This document shows, one piece after another, positions 26,762-30,896 of a stretch of DNA of 33,184 nucleotides (the stretch's first letter is position 1; the number at the start of each line of letters is the position of its first letter). Source of the DNA: Gammaproteobacteria bacterium. GTDB lineage: Bacteria > Pseudomonadota > Gammaproteobacteria > Steroidobacterales > Steroidobacteraceae. Below the pieces are notes generated by a model. That model was not told the DNA's origin, made no database searches, and saw only the letters and a list, made by a program, of their open reading frames with translations. The DNA lies in the NCBI GenBank assembly GCA_016874175.1, contig VGUP01000012.1:1-33184 (forward strand), read 5' to 3'. The position numbers were made by a program, and so were the translations under genes.

Positions 26762-27706
26762 ATGGCGAGCGAATCAAAACCCGGCTTTTTCCAACGACTG
26801 AAGGATCGCCTGACGCGGCCAGGCGGCAGCATCGGTTCAGGCCTTGCTCGCCTTTTCGGTGCGCGGCGGATCGACGACTCGATTCTCGAGGAACTCGAGT
26901 CGCGACTGCTCGCCGCAGATGTCGGCGTGCAAGTCACCGAAGAATTGCTCGATGGTTTGCGCAAGCGCGTAGCCCGCCAACAACTCGACAATGTCGATGC
27001 GCTGCTTGCAGCCTTGCGCAGCGACATCACGGCGCTGCTGGTGCCGGTTGCCAAGCCGCTCGTCATTGATCGCAGCGTGAAGCCCTACACCATCCTTGTC
27101 GTCGGCGTGAACGGTTCGGGCAAGACCACGACCATCGGCAAGCTCGCACATCGTTATCGCAGCGCGGGCCTCAAGGTAATGCTCGCTGCAGGCGACACCT
27201 TTCGCGCCGCTGCCGTCGAACAGATAGGTATCTGGGCCGAGCGCACGGGCGCCGAGCTCATCGCACAGCAGACCGGTGCCGACCCCGCCGCCGTGGCCTT
27301 CGATGCCTTCGCCGCAGCCCGTAGTCGCGGCGCGGATATTTTGATCGCGGATACCGCCGGTCGACTGCAGGCGCAAGCGCATCTCATGGAAGAACTGCGC
27401 AAGGTGCGCCGCGTCCTCGGCAAAGCGGATCCCGCGGCACCCCACGAAGTATTGCTGGTGCTTGATGCCAATCAGGGGCAGAACGCGCTCTCGCAGGCGC
27501 TGCAATTCCATGAGGCTGTAGGGGTCACGGGACTCGTACTCACCAAGCTTGACGGCACGGCAAAGGGTGGCATCGTGCTCGCGATTGCGCGCCGCCTGAA
27601 GCTGCCGATCCGTTTCATTGGTATCGGCGAGGGTGCCGAAGATTTCGGCGAGTTCGATGCCGCCGCTTTCGCCGCCGCATTGATCGAGGGAGGCAGTTCC
27701 ACGTGA
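26762..27706 (+). CDS. ftsY: Signal recognition particle receptor FtsY
   Basis: The 314-residue protein has a short basic N-terminus (ESKPGFFQRLKDRLTR), the N domain of the SRP GTPases (LEELESRLLAADVGVQVTEELL) and the G domain with GVNGSGKTTTIGKLA, DTFRAAAVEQ, DTAGRLQ, TKLDGTAKGG and GEGAEDFGEFD. It lacks the long acidic A domain of the E. coli protein, as in many bacteria. FtsY docks ribosome-SRP complexes at the inner membrane. It opens the ftsY-ftsE-ftsX unit, and its stop overlaps the ftsE GTG (GTGA). Confidence 0.97.
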   Translation: MASESKPGFFQRLKDRLTRPGGSIGSGLARLFGARRIDDSILEELESRLLAADVGVQVTEELLDGLRKRVARQQLDNVDALLAALRSDITALLVPVAKPLVIDRSVKPYTILVVGVNGSGKTTTIGKLAHRYRSAGLKVMLAAGDTFRAAAVEQIGIWAERTGAELIAQQTGADPAAVAFDAFAAARSRGADILIADTAGRLQAQAHLMEELRKVRRVLGKADPAAPHEVLLVLDANQGQNALSQALQFHEAVGVTGLVLTKLDGTAKGGIVLAIARRLKLPIRFIGIGEGAEDFGEFDAAAFAAALIEGGSST

Positions 27707-28380
27707 TTCGTTTCGATCATGTTTTCAAGCGCTATCCGAATGGTCGCGAAGCGCTGCACGACGTGTCTTTTGAGGTACGCGCGGGCGAACTCGTATTTCT
27801 CACGGGACGCAGCGGGGCGGGTAAGAGCTCGGTGCTCAAACTGATGACGCTGCTCGAGCGACCGACCCGCGGCACGGTCACGGTCAACGGCCAAGACACC
27901 GGCACTTTGCCGATGCGGGCGATTCCAGCATTTCGGCGGCGACTCGGCATCGTGTTTCAGGACCATCAACTTTTGATGGATCGACCGGTGTACGACAACG
28001 TGGCGCTACCACTGATGGTTTCGGATACGCGCTTTCGCGATATCGACAAACGCGTGCGCGCGGCACTCGATCAAGTCGGGTTACTCGACAAAGAACGGGT
28101 GTCGCCTGCGGAACTTTCAGTTGGCGAACAACAACGCGTAGGGATTGCGCGTGCGGTGGTAGCGCGACCCACGGTACTGATCGCAGATGAACCAACCGGT
28201 AATCTCGATCACGGACTCGCACGCGAAGTGATGCAACTCTTTCGCAGATTTCAGGATGCCGGCGTCACGGTACTGATCGCCACGCATGACATGGCGCTCG
28301 TGCGTGAGTTCTCGCAGCGCGAGATTCTGATCGACGACGGCAAAGTATTCAGCGGCGTCCAAGCGGAGCGTGCCTCGTGA
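27703..28380 (+). CDS. ftsE: Cell division ATP-binding protein FtsE
   Basis: The 225-residue ABC ATPase has Walker A GRSGAGKSSVLK, Q-loop FQDHQLL, Walker B VLIADEPTGNLD and the H-loop ATHD. With FtsX it couples divisome activity to activation of peptidoglycan hydrolases. The signature reads LSVGEQQRVGIARAV: the first Gly of LSGGE is Val, a one-base change (GTT for GGT), which is unusual in a family where this motif is nearly fixed. GTG start and 4-base overlaps on both sides (GTGA) show tight coupling with ftsY and ftsX. Confidence 0.96.
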   Translation: MIRFDHVFKRYPNGREALHDVSFEVRAGELVFLTGRSGAGKSSVLKLMTLLERPTRGTVTVNGQDTGTLPMRAIPAFRRRLGIVFQDHQLLMDRPVYDNVALPLMVSDTRFRDIDKRVRAALDQVGLLDKERVSPAELSVGEQQRVGIARAVVARPTVLIADEPTGNLDHGLAREVMQLFRRFQDAGVTVLIATHDMALVREFSQREILIDDGKVFSGVQAERAS

Positions 28381-29303
28381 CCTCGCCCATCATCTATCTC
28401 ACGCGACACGCACAGGCGTTTCTCGGCGCGCTCGGCAGATTGCTGCGTCGGCCGCTCGGCAGTCTGTTGACGCTGCTGGCCATTGCCGTTGCGCTCGCGC
28501 TGCCGGCCTCGCTCTGGTTGCTGGTCAAAAATGCACAACTCGCCACAGGTGATACCGGCGACGCCATCGAGATTTCGGTGTATTTCCGCCCGGGTGCAGC
28601 GCTGGAGAAAGCCGAGCAACTCGCTGCGTCGGCGCGCGTCAGGACCGAAGCAGGTACGGTGACCGTGATTTCCGCCGATGTCGCACTCGAAGAATTTCGC
28701 CGCTACTCGGGCTTTGGGGCAGCACTCGATTCCCTACAGGGCAATCCGCTGCCCCACGTCATCACAGTCAAACCGAAGCCCGATTACGCCAATCCTCGAG
28801 GCGTCGAGTCGTTACAGAAATACCTGCGGGCCTGGCCCGAGGTGGACAGCGTACAGGTGGACGGCGAATGGGTCCGCCGACTCAGCGCCATCCTCGACTT
28901 GATGCGCAACGTGCTCGGTGCTTTTGCGGGTTTGCTGGCGCTCGGCGTGTTGGTGGTCATCGGCAACGCCATCCGACTCGAAATCGGCGCTCACCGCGCG
29001 GAAATCGAAGTCACCAAGCTCGTCGGCGGATCAAACGCTTTTGTGCGCCGACCTTTTCTCTACGAAGGGTTTTTCCTCGGCTTGCTCGGCGGGCTGCTGG
29101 CCACCGGCATCACGGTGATTCTGGTGGTCGCGCTCGCCGAACCCGTCAGTCGCGTGTCGGCGCTGTACGGTGGACGCTATTTACTGAGCGGACTCGACCT
29201 CCTCGAAGCGGCGGCGCTCATTGGGCTCTCCGCGTTGCTCGGCGTCATTGGGGCTTGGCTCGGAGCAGCTCTATTAATCGCGAAAATCGAACCAAGAGAG
29301 TAG
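28377..29303 (+). CDS. ftsX: Cell division protein FtsX
   Basis: The 308-residue membrane protein has a cytoplasmic N-terminus, a first helix (LLTLLAIAVALALPASLWLL), a periplasmic domain of roughly 120-130 residues (EISVYFRPGAALEKAEQLAA), and then three helices starting at LGAFAGLLALGVLVVIGNAI with the FtsX segment EIEVTKLVGGSNAFVRRPFLYEG. It is the membrane partner of FtsE and passes the signal to periplasmic amidase activators. It starts at a GTG inside the ftsE stop and ends in TAG. The 112 bases that follow hold an AT-rich hairpin and the rpoH control region. Confidence 0.95.
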   Translation: MTSPIIYLTRHAQAFLGALGRLLRRPLGSLLTLLAIAVALALPASLWLLVKNAQLATGDTGDAIEISVYFRPGAALEKAEQLAASARVRTEAGTVTVISADVALEEFRRYSGFGAALDSLQGNPLPHVITVKPKPDYANPRGVESLQKYLRAWPEVDSVQVDGEWVRRLSAILDLMRNVLGAFAGLLALGVLVVIGNAIRLEIGAHRAEIEVTKLVGGSNAFVRRPFLYEGFFLGLLGGLLATGITVILVVALAEPVSRVSALYGGRYLLSGLDLLEAAALIGLSALLGVIGAWLGAALLIAKIEPRE

Positions 29304-29310
29304 CGAAATT

Positions 29311-29343
29311 GTCTTTTTGATTTACTCATGAATCAATAAAGAC
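29311..29343. repeat. AT-rich hairpin between ftsX and rpoH
   Basis: The arms GTCTTTTTGATT and AATCAATAAAGAC can form a 12-bp stem with one bulged T around the loop TACTCATG. It is strikingly AT-rich for this genome. It follows the ftsX stop by 7 bases and lies upstream of the CIRCE element. It has no T-run after it, so it may be a weak terminator or 3'-end stabiliser for ftsYEX, or a second regulatory site. Confidence 0.5.
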
Positions 29344-29364
29344 GTGATCGAATCTTGGGTCGGA

Positions 29365-29391
29365 TTAGCACTCAAAACACCCGAGTGCTAG
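29365..29391 (+). promoter_or_regulatory. CIRCE element (HrcA operator) upstream of rpoH
   Basis: TTAGCACTC (29365-29373), nine bases, GAGTGCTAG (29383-29391). The CIRCE consensus is TTAGCACTC-N9-GAGTGCTAA, so 17 of 18 arm bases match and the spacer length is exact. CIRCE is the binding site of the heat-shock repressor HrcA, normally found before groESL and the dnaK operon. Here it sits 24 bases before the rpoH start codon. hrcA itself is not in the window. Confidence 0.88.
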
Positions 29392-29394
29392 AAT
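29365..29394 (+). promoter_or_regulatory. Possible rpoH promoter overlaid by CIRCE
   Basis: TTAGCA (29365-29370, 4 of 6 to the -35) and TAGAAT (29389-29394, 5 of 6 to the -10) are 18 bases apart. The -35 lies in the left CIRCE arm and the -10 overlaps the right one, so bound HrcA would block RNA polymerase directly. A start near 29401 would place GGAGG (29401-29405) at the very 5' end of the mRNA, which is tight. Other promoters further upstream are possible. Confidence 0.45.
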
Positions 29395-29415
29395 TCGGCC
29401 GGAGGTTACGACCCC

Positions 29416-30297
29416 ATGTCCACACAGGTTCTCGCGCCCCGTTACACTGATCTGTCGCTGACCGGCCCGCTTGGCAGCCTCGACGCGTACCTCGACCGCG
29501 TGTCGAAGGTGCCGGTGTTGTCGCGCGAAGACGAACAGTCGCTGGCACGCCGCTTTCGTGAAGAAGGCGATGTCGATGCCGCACGTGCACTCGTACTCTC
29601 GCATCTGCGCTTCGTGGTGTACATTGCCCGCGGCTACTCGGGATACGGGCTGCCGATGGGCGATCTGGTGCAGGAAGGCAACGTCGGACTGATGAAAGCC
29701 GTGAAGCGCTTCGATCCCACAATCGGTGTGCGCCTGGTGTCCTTCGCTGTGCACTGGATCCGCGCCGAGATTCACGAGTACGTGCTGCGCAACTGGCGGC
29801 TCGTCAAAGTGGCCACCACCAAGGCGCAGCGCAAACTTTTCTTCAACCTGCGTCGCCTCAAAAAAAATCTGACCTGGTTGTCGCCCGAAGAGACTCGTAC
29901 CGTCGCCCGGGAACTTAGCGTCAGCGAATACGAAGTCACCGAGATGGAGCGACGACTCGCAGCGCGTGATCTGTCGTTCGATCCGACACCGGCCGAATCC
30001 GAAGAAGACGAAACCTACTCCCCCGCCACCTATCTGCCCGCACCCGATGCCGACCCGGCTACGCAAGTGGAAAGCGAAGAGTGGGAAGATGACACCCACG
30101 AACGCTTGGCCGCAGCGATGCAAGCGCTTGATGCCCGCAGTCGCGACATTCTCGCGAGCCGCTGGATGGCGGGCGATGCCGAGAAAGCGACCCTGCACGA
30201 CCTCGCCGCCAAATACGGCGTTTCGGCCGAGCGCATTCGTCAGCTCGAAGCGAACGCGATCAAAAAATTGCGCGGCTTGATGGTCGGGCCGGCCTGA
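29416..30297 (+). CDS. rpoH: RNA polymerase heat-shock sigma factor (sigma-32)
   Basis: The 293-residue protein has sigma region 2 ([42 protein letters not shown] and [15 protein letters not shown] are contiguous blocks, here cited as two motifs: [19 protein letters not shown] and [10 protein letters not shown]). The RpoH box [10 protein letters not shown] (138-147) distinguishes it from other group-3 sigmas. Region 4 is [19 protein letters not shown]. It directs polymerase to chaperone and protease genes. It follows ftsYEX as usual in gammaproteobacteria. GGAGG lies 10 bases before the ATG. The upstream CIRCE element suggests repression by HrcA, which would link the two heat-shock circuits. 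Confidence 0.97.
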
Positions 30298-30341: not shown

Positions 30342-30896
30342 TCAATCGACCCCAGTTTCGGGCGCTGGCGGCGTGGTGGCCTTGGCATAGCCGCGCGGTC
30401 GGATCGCCACGGTATTCACGATGCGCGTGCAGCGCGTCCCGTCGCGCAAATAAAAACCGTATTCGAACGAGGGGGTCGCCCGGTGGTCACGCGCAAGTGC
30501 TGCGCGGATTTCGCGCTCTAGAGTCGCCGGAAACTCGAAGCGCAGTTCGAGATCGGTGCTGCCGCCGTGCTCGAAATCGACGGTGAACCCGCGCGTCCAT
30601 ACCGAATAACCGGGGAATACTCGAGCGCAGGCGAGTGCCGCGATCGGATCAGCGAGTGCGGCCTGATAGCCGCCGAACATCACCCCGCCCGGATTACGCG
30701 AAATCGCATTGAGCGGCAGCCGAATGCGCACACGCCGCCATTCGCGATCCATCTCCAGCACCTTGATGCGCATGAACCAGAACGGCGGATAAAACTCGAG
30801 CATGCGCGCATCCGACAAGATGCGACGATCGGACATGAAGCGCAGAAAGCGCTGCATCAACCGCGGACGCGGCGGCTTGGGGGGCGACTGACTCAC
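30342..30896 (-). CDS. DUF4442 hotdog-fold protein, thioesterase-like
   Basis: The 184-residue protein matches the DUF4442 hotdog group: FYPPFWFMRIKVLEMDREWRRVRIRLPLN is its first block (a polar surface strand after FMRIKV). NPGGVMFGGYQAALADPIAAL is the hotdog helix with the usual family layout, and YSVWTRGFTVDFEHGGSTDLE is the next strand. Relatives are considered acyl-CoA or acyl-ACP thioesterase-like, mostly untested. It begins at a GTG overlapping the stop of the deacetylase-family gene (GTGA), so the two are co-translated. Confidence 0.82.
   Translation of the reverse strand: MSQSPPKPPRPRLMQRFLRFMSDRRILSDARMLEFYPPFWFMRIKVLEMDREWRRVRIRLPLNAISRNPGGVMFGGYQAALADPIAALACARVFPGYSVWTRGFTVDFEHGGSTDLELRFEFPATLEREIRAALARDHRATPSFEYGFYLRDGTRCTRIVNTVAIRPRGYAKATTPPAPETGVD

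Follow-up and report, generated by a model that had tools for sequence, protein, structure and literature searches.

An HrcA operator predicted to lie over a sigma-E type and an extended -10 promoter of rpoH in a member of the Steroidobacteraceae and many other HrcA-bearing Gammaproteobacteria

A near-perfect CIRCE element, the operator of the repressor HrcA, stands immediately before rpoH, which encodes the heat-shock sigma factor, in a genome of the Steroidobacteraceae and in nearly all of the close relatives that were read. The reading we consider probable is that this operator lies over the rpoH promoter and that HrcA would block two overlapping starts, a sigma-E type start among them, until GroE is titrated. 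HrcA/CIRCE and sigma-32 are usually seen as separate circuits, with groESL as their one point of contact, if any. Because CIRCE sits on the rpoH promoter in most sampled HrcA-bearing relatives, the two heat-shock circuits appear to be wired together. A sequence-only reading of this DNA had proposed that HrcA control of rpoH would merge them, and the proposal gains sequence support from the presence of hrcA and of a second CIRCE, before groES, in this genome, from the relatives, and from the association of the element with HrcA.

The window, that is, the whole stretch of 33,184 bases that was analysed, contains ftsY, ftsE (27703-28380, + strand; TIGR02673, 285 bits, above cut-off), ftsX (28377-29303, +; TIGR00439, 305.2 bits, above cut-off) and then rpoH (29416-30297, +), in this order. 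The rpoH product, a heat-shock sigma factor of 293 amino acids, scores 399.7 bits against the equivalog model TIGR02392 (cut-off 323.1). Scored against the consensus inverted repeat TTAGCACTC-N9-GAGTGCTAA, the operator TTAGCACTC-AAAACACCC-GAGTGCTAG (29365-29391, +) matches 17 of the 18 arm bases around a spacer of exactly nine bases. It begins 61 bases after the end of ftsX and ends 24 bases before the rpoH ATG at 29416. No other site in the window resembles CIRCE with at most three mismatches, and none of 100 dinucleotide shuffles contained any CIRCE match, which bears out the original description of a 17 of 18 match with a nine-base spacer 24 bases before the gene. A ribosome-binding site, GGAGG (29401-29405, +), was recognised by eye. 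Downstream of rpoH, on the opposite strand, a 184-amino acid ORF (30342-30896) matches no NCBIfam model at E 0.001.

Two candidate promoters share letters with the operator. The extended -10 element TG-C-TAGAAT (29386-29394, +) is of sigma-70 type, with TAGAAT matching TATAAT at 5 of 6 bases; it overlaps the right arm of CIRCE and reaches 3 bases past the operator. A possible sigma-70 -35, TTAGCA (29365-29370, +; 4/6 to TTGACA by eye), lies within the left arm, 18 bases from the -10, and may consist of operator letters only. These elements bear out the initial remark that candidate -35 and -10 boxes fall within CIRCE; the sigma-E type promoter that is interlocked with the operator in relatives had gone unnoticed in that first reading. 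The alternative -35 TAGCAC, 17 bases from the extended -10, was judged to be operator sequence. The other candidate partly resembles the sigma-E promoter pattern GAACTT-N16/17-TCnnA: its putative -35, GAATCT (29350-29355, +), matches GAACTT at only 4 of 6 bases and is weak in this genome, and its putative -10, TCAAA (29372-29376, +), follows after 16 bases and takes two bases from the end of the left arm and three from the start of the spacer. At the -35 position, the relative G002, whose RpoH is 95% identical to that of the window and whose CIRCE scores 16/18, carries GAACCT, and the logo of relatives shows GGAACT. The extended -10 is the surer promoter in this genome, since it matches at 5/6 against 4/6 for the sigma-E -35, and sigma-E input at rpoH may be weakened here.

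The repressor and a second target are found in the same genome (2.56 Mb in 254 contigs, 96% complete). There is one hrcA match, full-length, on contig C155 (TIGR00331, 331.5 bits, cut-off 197.2), and a second CIRCE of 16/18 lies on contig C29 (19122-19148), where a groES match begins 52 bases after it. When the assembly was scanned with at most three mismatches, CIRCE-like sites appeared only at rpoH and before groES on C29, and none was found before hrcA. Because just these two sites are present in the assembly, the predicted HrcA regulon here consists of groESL and rpoH. The sigma factor of the second candidate promoter is also encoded: an rpoE match exceeds its cut-off (TIGR02939, 271.2 bits), and the two genes after it resemble RseA, at 26.7 bits, and RseB, at 132.6 bits, scores that fall short of the respective model cut-offs. 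Upstream of this rpoE, GAACTT-N16-TCTCA occurs at L206:1880, and the RpoE family match lies 108 bases further on.

Conservation among close relatives is nearly complete. Within the 60 nearest genomes, own included, CIRCE precedes rpoH in 49 of the 50 upstreams read; it scores at least 16/18 at all 30 rpoH loci of the first set, which includes the window's own, and at least 17/18 at 19 of the 20 loci of further relatives. Six more genomes have CIRCE beside the rpoH match, judging coordinates by eye (G024, G028, G050, G052, G055, G058). As for the remaining four, in G004 nothing but the C-terminal part of rpoH is present, and no RpoH-level match exists in G012, G022 and G030. Among the matches listed for named GTDB genomes, CIRCE of at least 16/18 was present at 79 of 79 loci with enough upstream sequence, an eightieth (L117) being too short; this set comprises the closest relatives of the query, partly the same genomes as the first set, and includes Steroidobacter agaridevorans, Thioalkalivibrio sp. 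XN8 and many Woeseiaceae. The sequence-only reading had advised looking for hrcA and other CIRCE sites and scanning the rpoH upstreams of relatives, and had staked itself on the presence of hrcA and on conservation before rpoH; the gene, the groES site and the conserved element were all found.

The single miss among the 50 upstreams, the order-level relative G047 (L368), has no HrcA match and no CIRCE-like site anywhere in its assembly. Its rpoH upstream also lacks the GAAC box, there is no RpoE match, and by eye part of the region is similar to a sigma-32 promoter, a possible sign of rpoH autoregulation in this genome. Two other genomes, G039 and G054, have two perfect CIRCE sites each, yet no HrcA match in the assembly; a missing contig or a diverged repressor may account for this. 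Unlike the window's genome, two order-level relatives also carry CIRCE before hrcA (17/18 at L243 in G043; 15/18 at L244 in G051).

A wider survey covered 369 Gammaproteobacteria genomes, own included, of which 268 have an HrcA match and 346 have rpoH (E 1e-60). It used a composite pattern (GAACT, ten bases, CIRCE with spacer AA, then A-M-T; at most three mismatches), which occurs in 133 of the 369; the reversed composite gave no match among the matches listed. At all 30 composite loci that were fetched, rpoH comes next. HrcA is present in 126 of the 133 composite-positive genomes and missing from 7 (Fisher p 1.6e-14, a value that ignores shared ancestry), and six of those seven assemblies are less than 90% complete. 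In addition, 82 rpoH upstreams were read, from the 30 best-scoring loci and from the 52 remaining composite-negative genomes among the matches listed, with G091 left out because its rpoH lies near a contig end. Among these, an rpoH CIRCE scoring at least 15/18 was present in 54 of 63 HrcA-bearing genomes vs 4 of 19 without HrcA. The 54 divide, among the matches listed, into all 11 composite-positive and 43 of 52 composite-negative genomes, and the nine HrcA genomes below this threshold include G400, which scores 14. Two of the four CIRCE-positive genomes without HrcA are assemblies only 73% (G158) and 79% (G375) complete, and the other two have a degraded site. The latter, G134 (L287) and G261 (L280), belong to one genus and are 99% and 97% complete; the arms of their rpoH CIRCE read TGTGCACTC and GAGTGTTAA, and such decay is expected of a relic that outlived its repressor. 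A rough extrapolation (126 + 43/52 of 142), which assumes that every composite match stands before rpoH and that the genomes sampled for their top rpoH scores represent the rest, puts CIRCE at rpoH in about nine in ten HrcA genomes. In a sample of 349 genomes from across the phylum, 10 carry the composite, own included, all of them among the 112 from the window's class; it occurred in none of the 237 genomes of other classes in this sample.

The letters that surround the operator differ between rpoH and groES. For rpoH, 109 sites of relatives were collected, two were dropped for short flanks, and the remaining 107 gave 102 distinct sequences, which were aligned on the operator. Outside the arms, the resulting logo has blocks at -16 to -11 (GGAACT), at spacer positions 2-3 (AA) and just 3' of the right arm (A, A/C, T). 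As a control, 37 non-rpoH CIRCE sites of the same clade were fetched, 35 of them before groES and 2 before hrcA; G031 has two weak CIRCE-like sites near groES, and the one counted is off the usual promoter place. The spacer AA is present in 91 of 102 rpoH sites vs 1 of 35 groES sites, and the T at the third base past the operator in 102 of 102 vs 1 of 35. GAACTT with at least 5 of 6 bases, at -17 to -14, occurs in 76 of 102 vs 1 of 35, where shuffled flanks lead one to expect 1.9%. Because the groES CIRCEs are without them, the conserved flanking letters are part of the rpoH promoter rather than of what HrcA recognises. Read against the consensus form of sigma-E/AlgU promoters, GAACTT-N16-TCnAA is best taken as such a promoter, with a -10 that would span the left arm and the spacer; TGCTAnAnT at the right arm would be an extended -10. 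The possibility that the GGAAC block is the -35 partner of the extended -10 was ruled out on spacing (~33 bases).

The groES sites instead keep a CTAT-A block that abuts CIRCE on its upstream side, at logo positions -6 to -1, with a TTGAAA-like block upstream by eye. Together these probably form a sigma-32 box, to judge from the logo block and inspection; a simple sigma-32 box expression matches 10 of the 35 sites at groES and none of the 102 at rpoH. Operator quality differs as well, the mean CIRCE match in the window's family being 16.05/18 for groES (19 sites) vs 17.37/18 for rpoH (30 sites). The left arm of the family's groES CIRCE is altered, mostly to TTAGCAGCC (13 of the 19 sites; L207 of the own genome included; L225-L242), unlike the rpoH CIRCE, which stays near consensus.

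Evidence for a sigma-E input extends to the class. Among the matches listed, the sigma-E pattern lies near CIRCE at 41 of 54 sites from HrcA genomes (1.3 expected from shuffles), and the T past the operator is present at 55 of 58 class CIRCE sites. The placement of the sigma-E pattern varies: among 45 listed sites, four of them from genomes without HrcA, GAAC is at -15/-16 in 30 and at -30/-31 in 9, the latter placing the sigma-E -10 just before CIRCE, not inside it. The pattern also occurs apart from the operator, in 4 of 15 listed upstreams without HrcA and without CIRCE (0.3 expected) and in 5 of 9 listed HrcA genomes without CIRCE at rpoH (0.2 expected). Upstreams of rpoE in 30 relatives contain the strict sigma-E pattern in 10 cases vs 0.5 expected, the nearest match in each having N16, although for three of these the distance to the family match is ~200 bases; the strict pattern is absent from the other 20. 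Nine relatives have no RpoE match at E 1e-60, including G028, which was left out of the upstream reading. The GAAC box is absent from G041 and G048, which have CIRCE and the extended -10, and from G047; it is kept in G011, G023, G043, G045 and, more weakly, G054, despite the missing RpoE match. The correspondence between the GAAC box and rpoE among relatives is thus imperfect. Overall, sigma-E input at rpoH appears to have good support in the clade but less in this genome.

These observations bear on whether sigma-E takes part at all. HrcA could simply act on the sigma-70 extended -10, with the GGAAC block doing something else or going unused here, and we regard this as a possible but unlikely account. 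The window's own promoter scores (4/6 against 5/6) lean toward it, as do G041 and G048 with their operator and extended -10 but neither the usual GAAC box nor an RpoE match at 1e-60; the correctly spaced GAACTT, matched in at least 5 of 6 bases at 76 of 102 rpoH sites when shuffles give 1.9%, the spacer AA that groES CIRCEs are missing, and the GAACCT of G002 speak against it.

Two further accounts were considered. CIRCE might act in RNA, as a hairpin in a read-through transcript from ftsYEX that hides or protects the rpoH start. Such a transcript is conceivable, given that the upstream genes are co-oriented and that ftsX ends 61 bases from CIRCE, but the pattern of conservation does not suit a hairpin: the left arm is near invariant in the 102 sites, and right-arm positions 21 and 27 vary while their partners are unchanged, so it is letters that are kept, not pairing. 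Conserved promoter letters surround the arms, and RNA made from these promoters would miss one or both arms, because the predicted starts lie inside or after the palindrome. A hairpin would not predict the association with HrcA either, and the account is improbable. Still less credible is a functionless palindrome, arisen by chance or left as a relic. Decayed copies do exist in G134 and G261, both without an HrcA match, but an element seen in 0 of 100 shuffles, kept near-perfect in relatives and frequent across the class can hardly be explained in this way.

The preferred reading is an HrcA operator over both candidate promoters. In Bacillus subtilis, HrcA is kept active by free GroE. The circuit predicted from the DNA, including binding, repression, titration, heat induction, the start sites and the use of each sigma factor, would run as follows. 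With GroE support, HrcA would occupy CIRCE and cover both -10 elements, so that RNA polymerase would be blocked at two starts. One, predicted near 29400, would belong to the extended -10 promoter and depend on the housekeeping sigma factor; the other, predicted near 29382, would in this lineage belong to a sigma-E type promoter with a -10 drawn from the left arm and spacer of CIRCE. Unfolded protein would take up GroE, HrcA would be released and rpoH would be transcribed. Sigma-32 would then drive groESL, which itself has CIRCE beside a sigma-32 type box, and fresh GroE would re-arm HrcA and shut both genes. Envelope stress, acting through sigma-E, would fire rpoH fully only with HrcA off. Because the groES CIRCE fits the consensus less well, repression of rpoH might be tighter than that of groESL.

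More broadly, we hold it slightly more plausible than its contrary that the composite of HrcA operator, sigma-E promoter and extended -10, with the operator either formed from the promoter letters or adjoining them, acts as an AND gate in most HrcA-bearing Gammaproteobacteria, and that the enteric and pseudomonad models are derived forms in which the repressor arm was lost and the sigma-E promoter retained. The gate would combine cytoplasmic unfolding, sensed through GroE and HrcA, with envelope stress, sensed through sigma-E, at one DNA site. The E. coli controls gave no HrcA match, and pseudomonads are not known to have HrcA. If this is true, HrcA/CIRCE and sigma-32 form one circuit in which GroE senses, transcriptionally, for the whole sigma-32 regulon, and the control of sigma-32 in E. 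coli is a remnant that followed HrcA loss. The design, a 60-base fragment with two sigma factors and one repressor, is directly testable.

The link between CIRCE and rpoH is itself of an already known kind. Table 8 of Rodionov et al. (2004; PMC545781) gives Geobacter sulfurreducens a CIRCE before rpoH, at -51 from the start, and predicts HrcA control of the heat-shock sigma factor, as proposed for the window. That organism is, however, a distant delta-proteobacterium, the table has an rpoH CIRCE for that genome only, and, unlike the clade described here, its Geobacter entry makes no mention of an overlapping sigma-E promoter. The sigma-E side of the arrangement also has precedents. Pseudomonas aeruginosa rpoH has a sigma-E/AlgU promoter, P3, as well as sigma-70 transcription (PMC13104619), and sigma-E binds at the rpoH promoter of Vibrio alginolyticus (PMC4890791); the available parts of these sources describe no HrcA operator, whereas here CIRCE overlaps the promoter. 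The available parts of PMC9866376 and PMC10696704 contain nothing on CIRCE at rpoH. Open-access literature, covered by titles and abstract openings and with most subscription journals outside it, did not join HrcA, sigma-E and rpoH in Gammaproteobacteria; the papers that bring HrcA, rpoE, rpoH and CIRCE together there concern, as far as those openings tell, Mesorhizobium and cyanobacteria. A 2003 survey by Permina and Gelfand reportedly, by its title, treats exactly the regulons at issue, and it may already list CIRCE before gamma-proteobacterial rpoH. What appears to be new is the frequency of the CIRCE-rpoH link in the sampled HrcA-bearing Gammaproteobacteria and its apparent fusion with a sigma-E type promoter. 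Compared with the familiar HrcA/CIRCE systems of the groESL and dnaK operons, the operator consensus and the repressor are the same, and the window's genome has a groES CIRCE too. At groES, however, CIRCE follows a sigma-32 type box, whereas at rpoH it appears to coincide in part with the -10 of a sigma-E type promoter and with an extended -10, and the target is the gene of a sigma factor.
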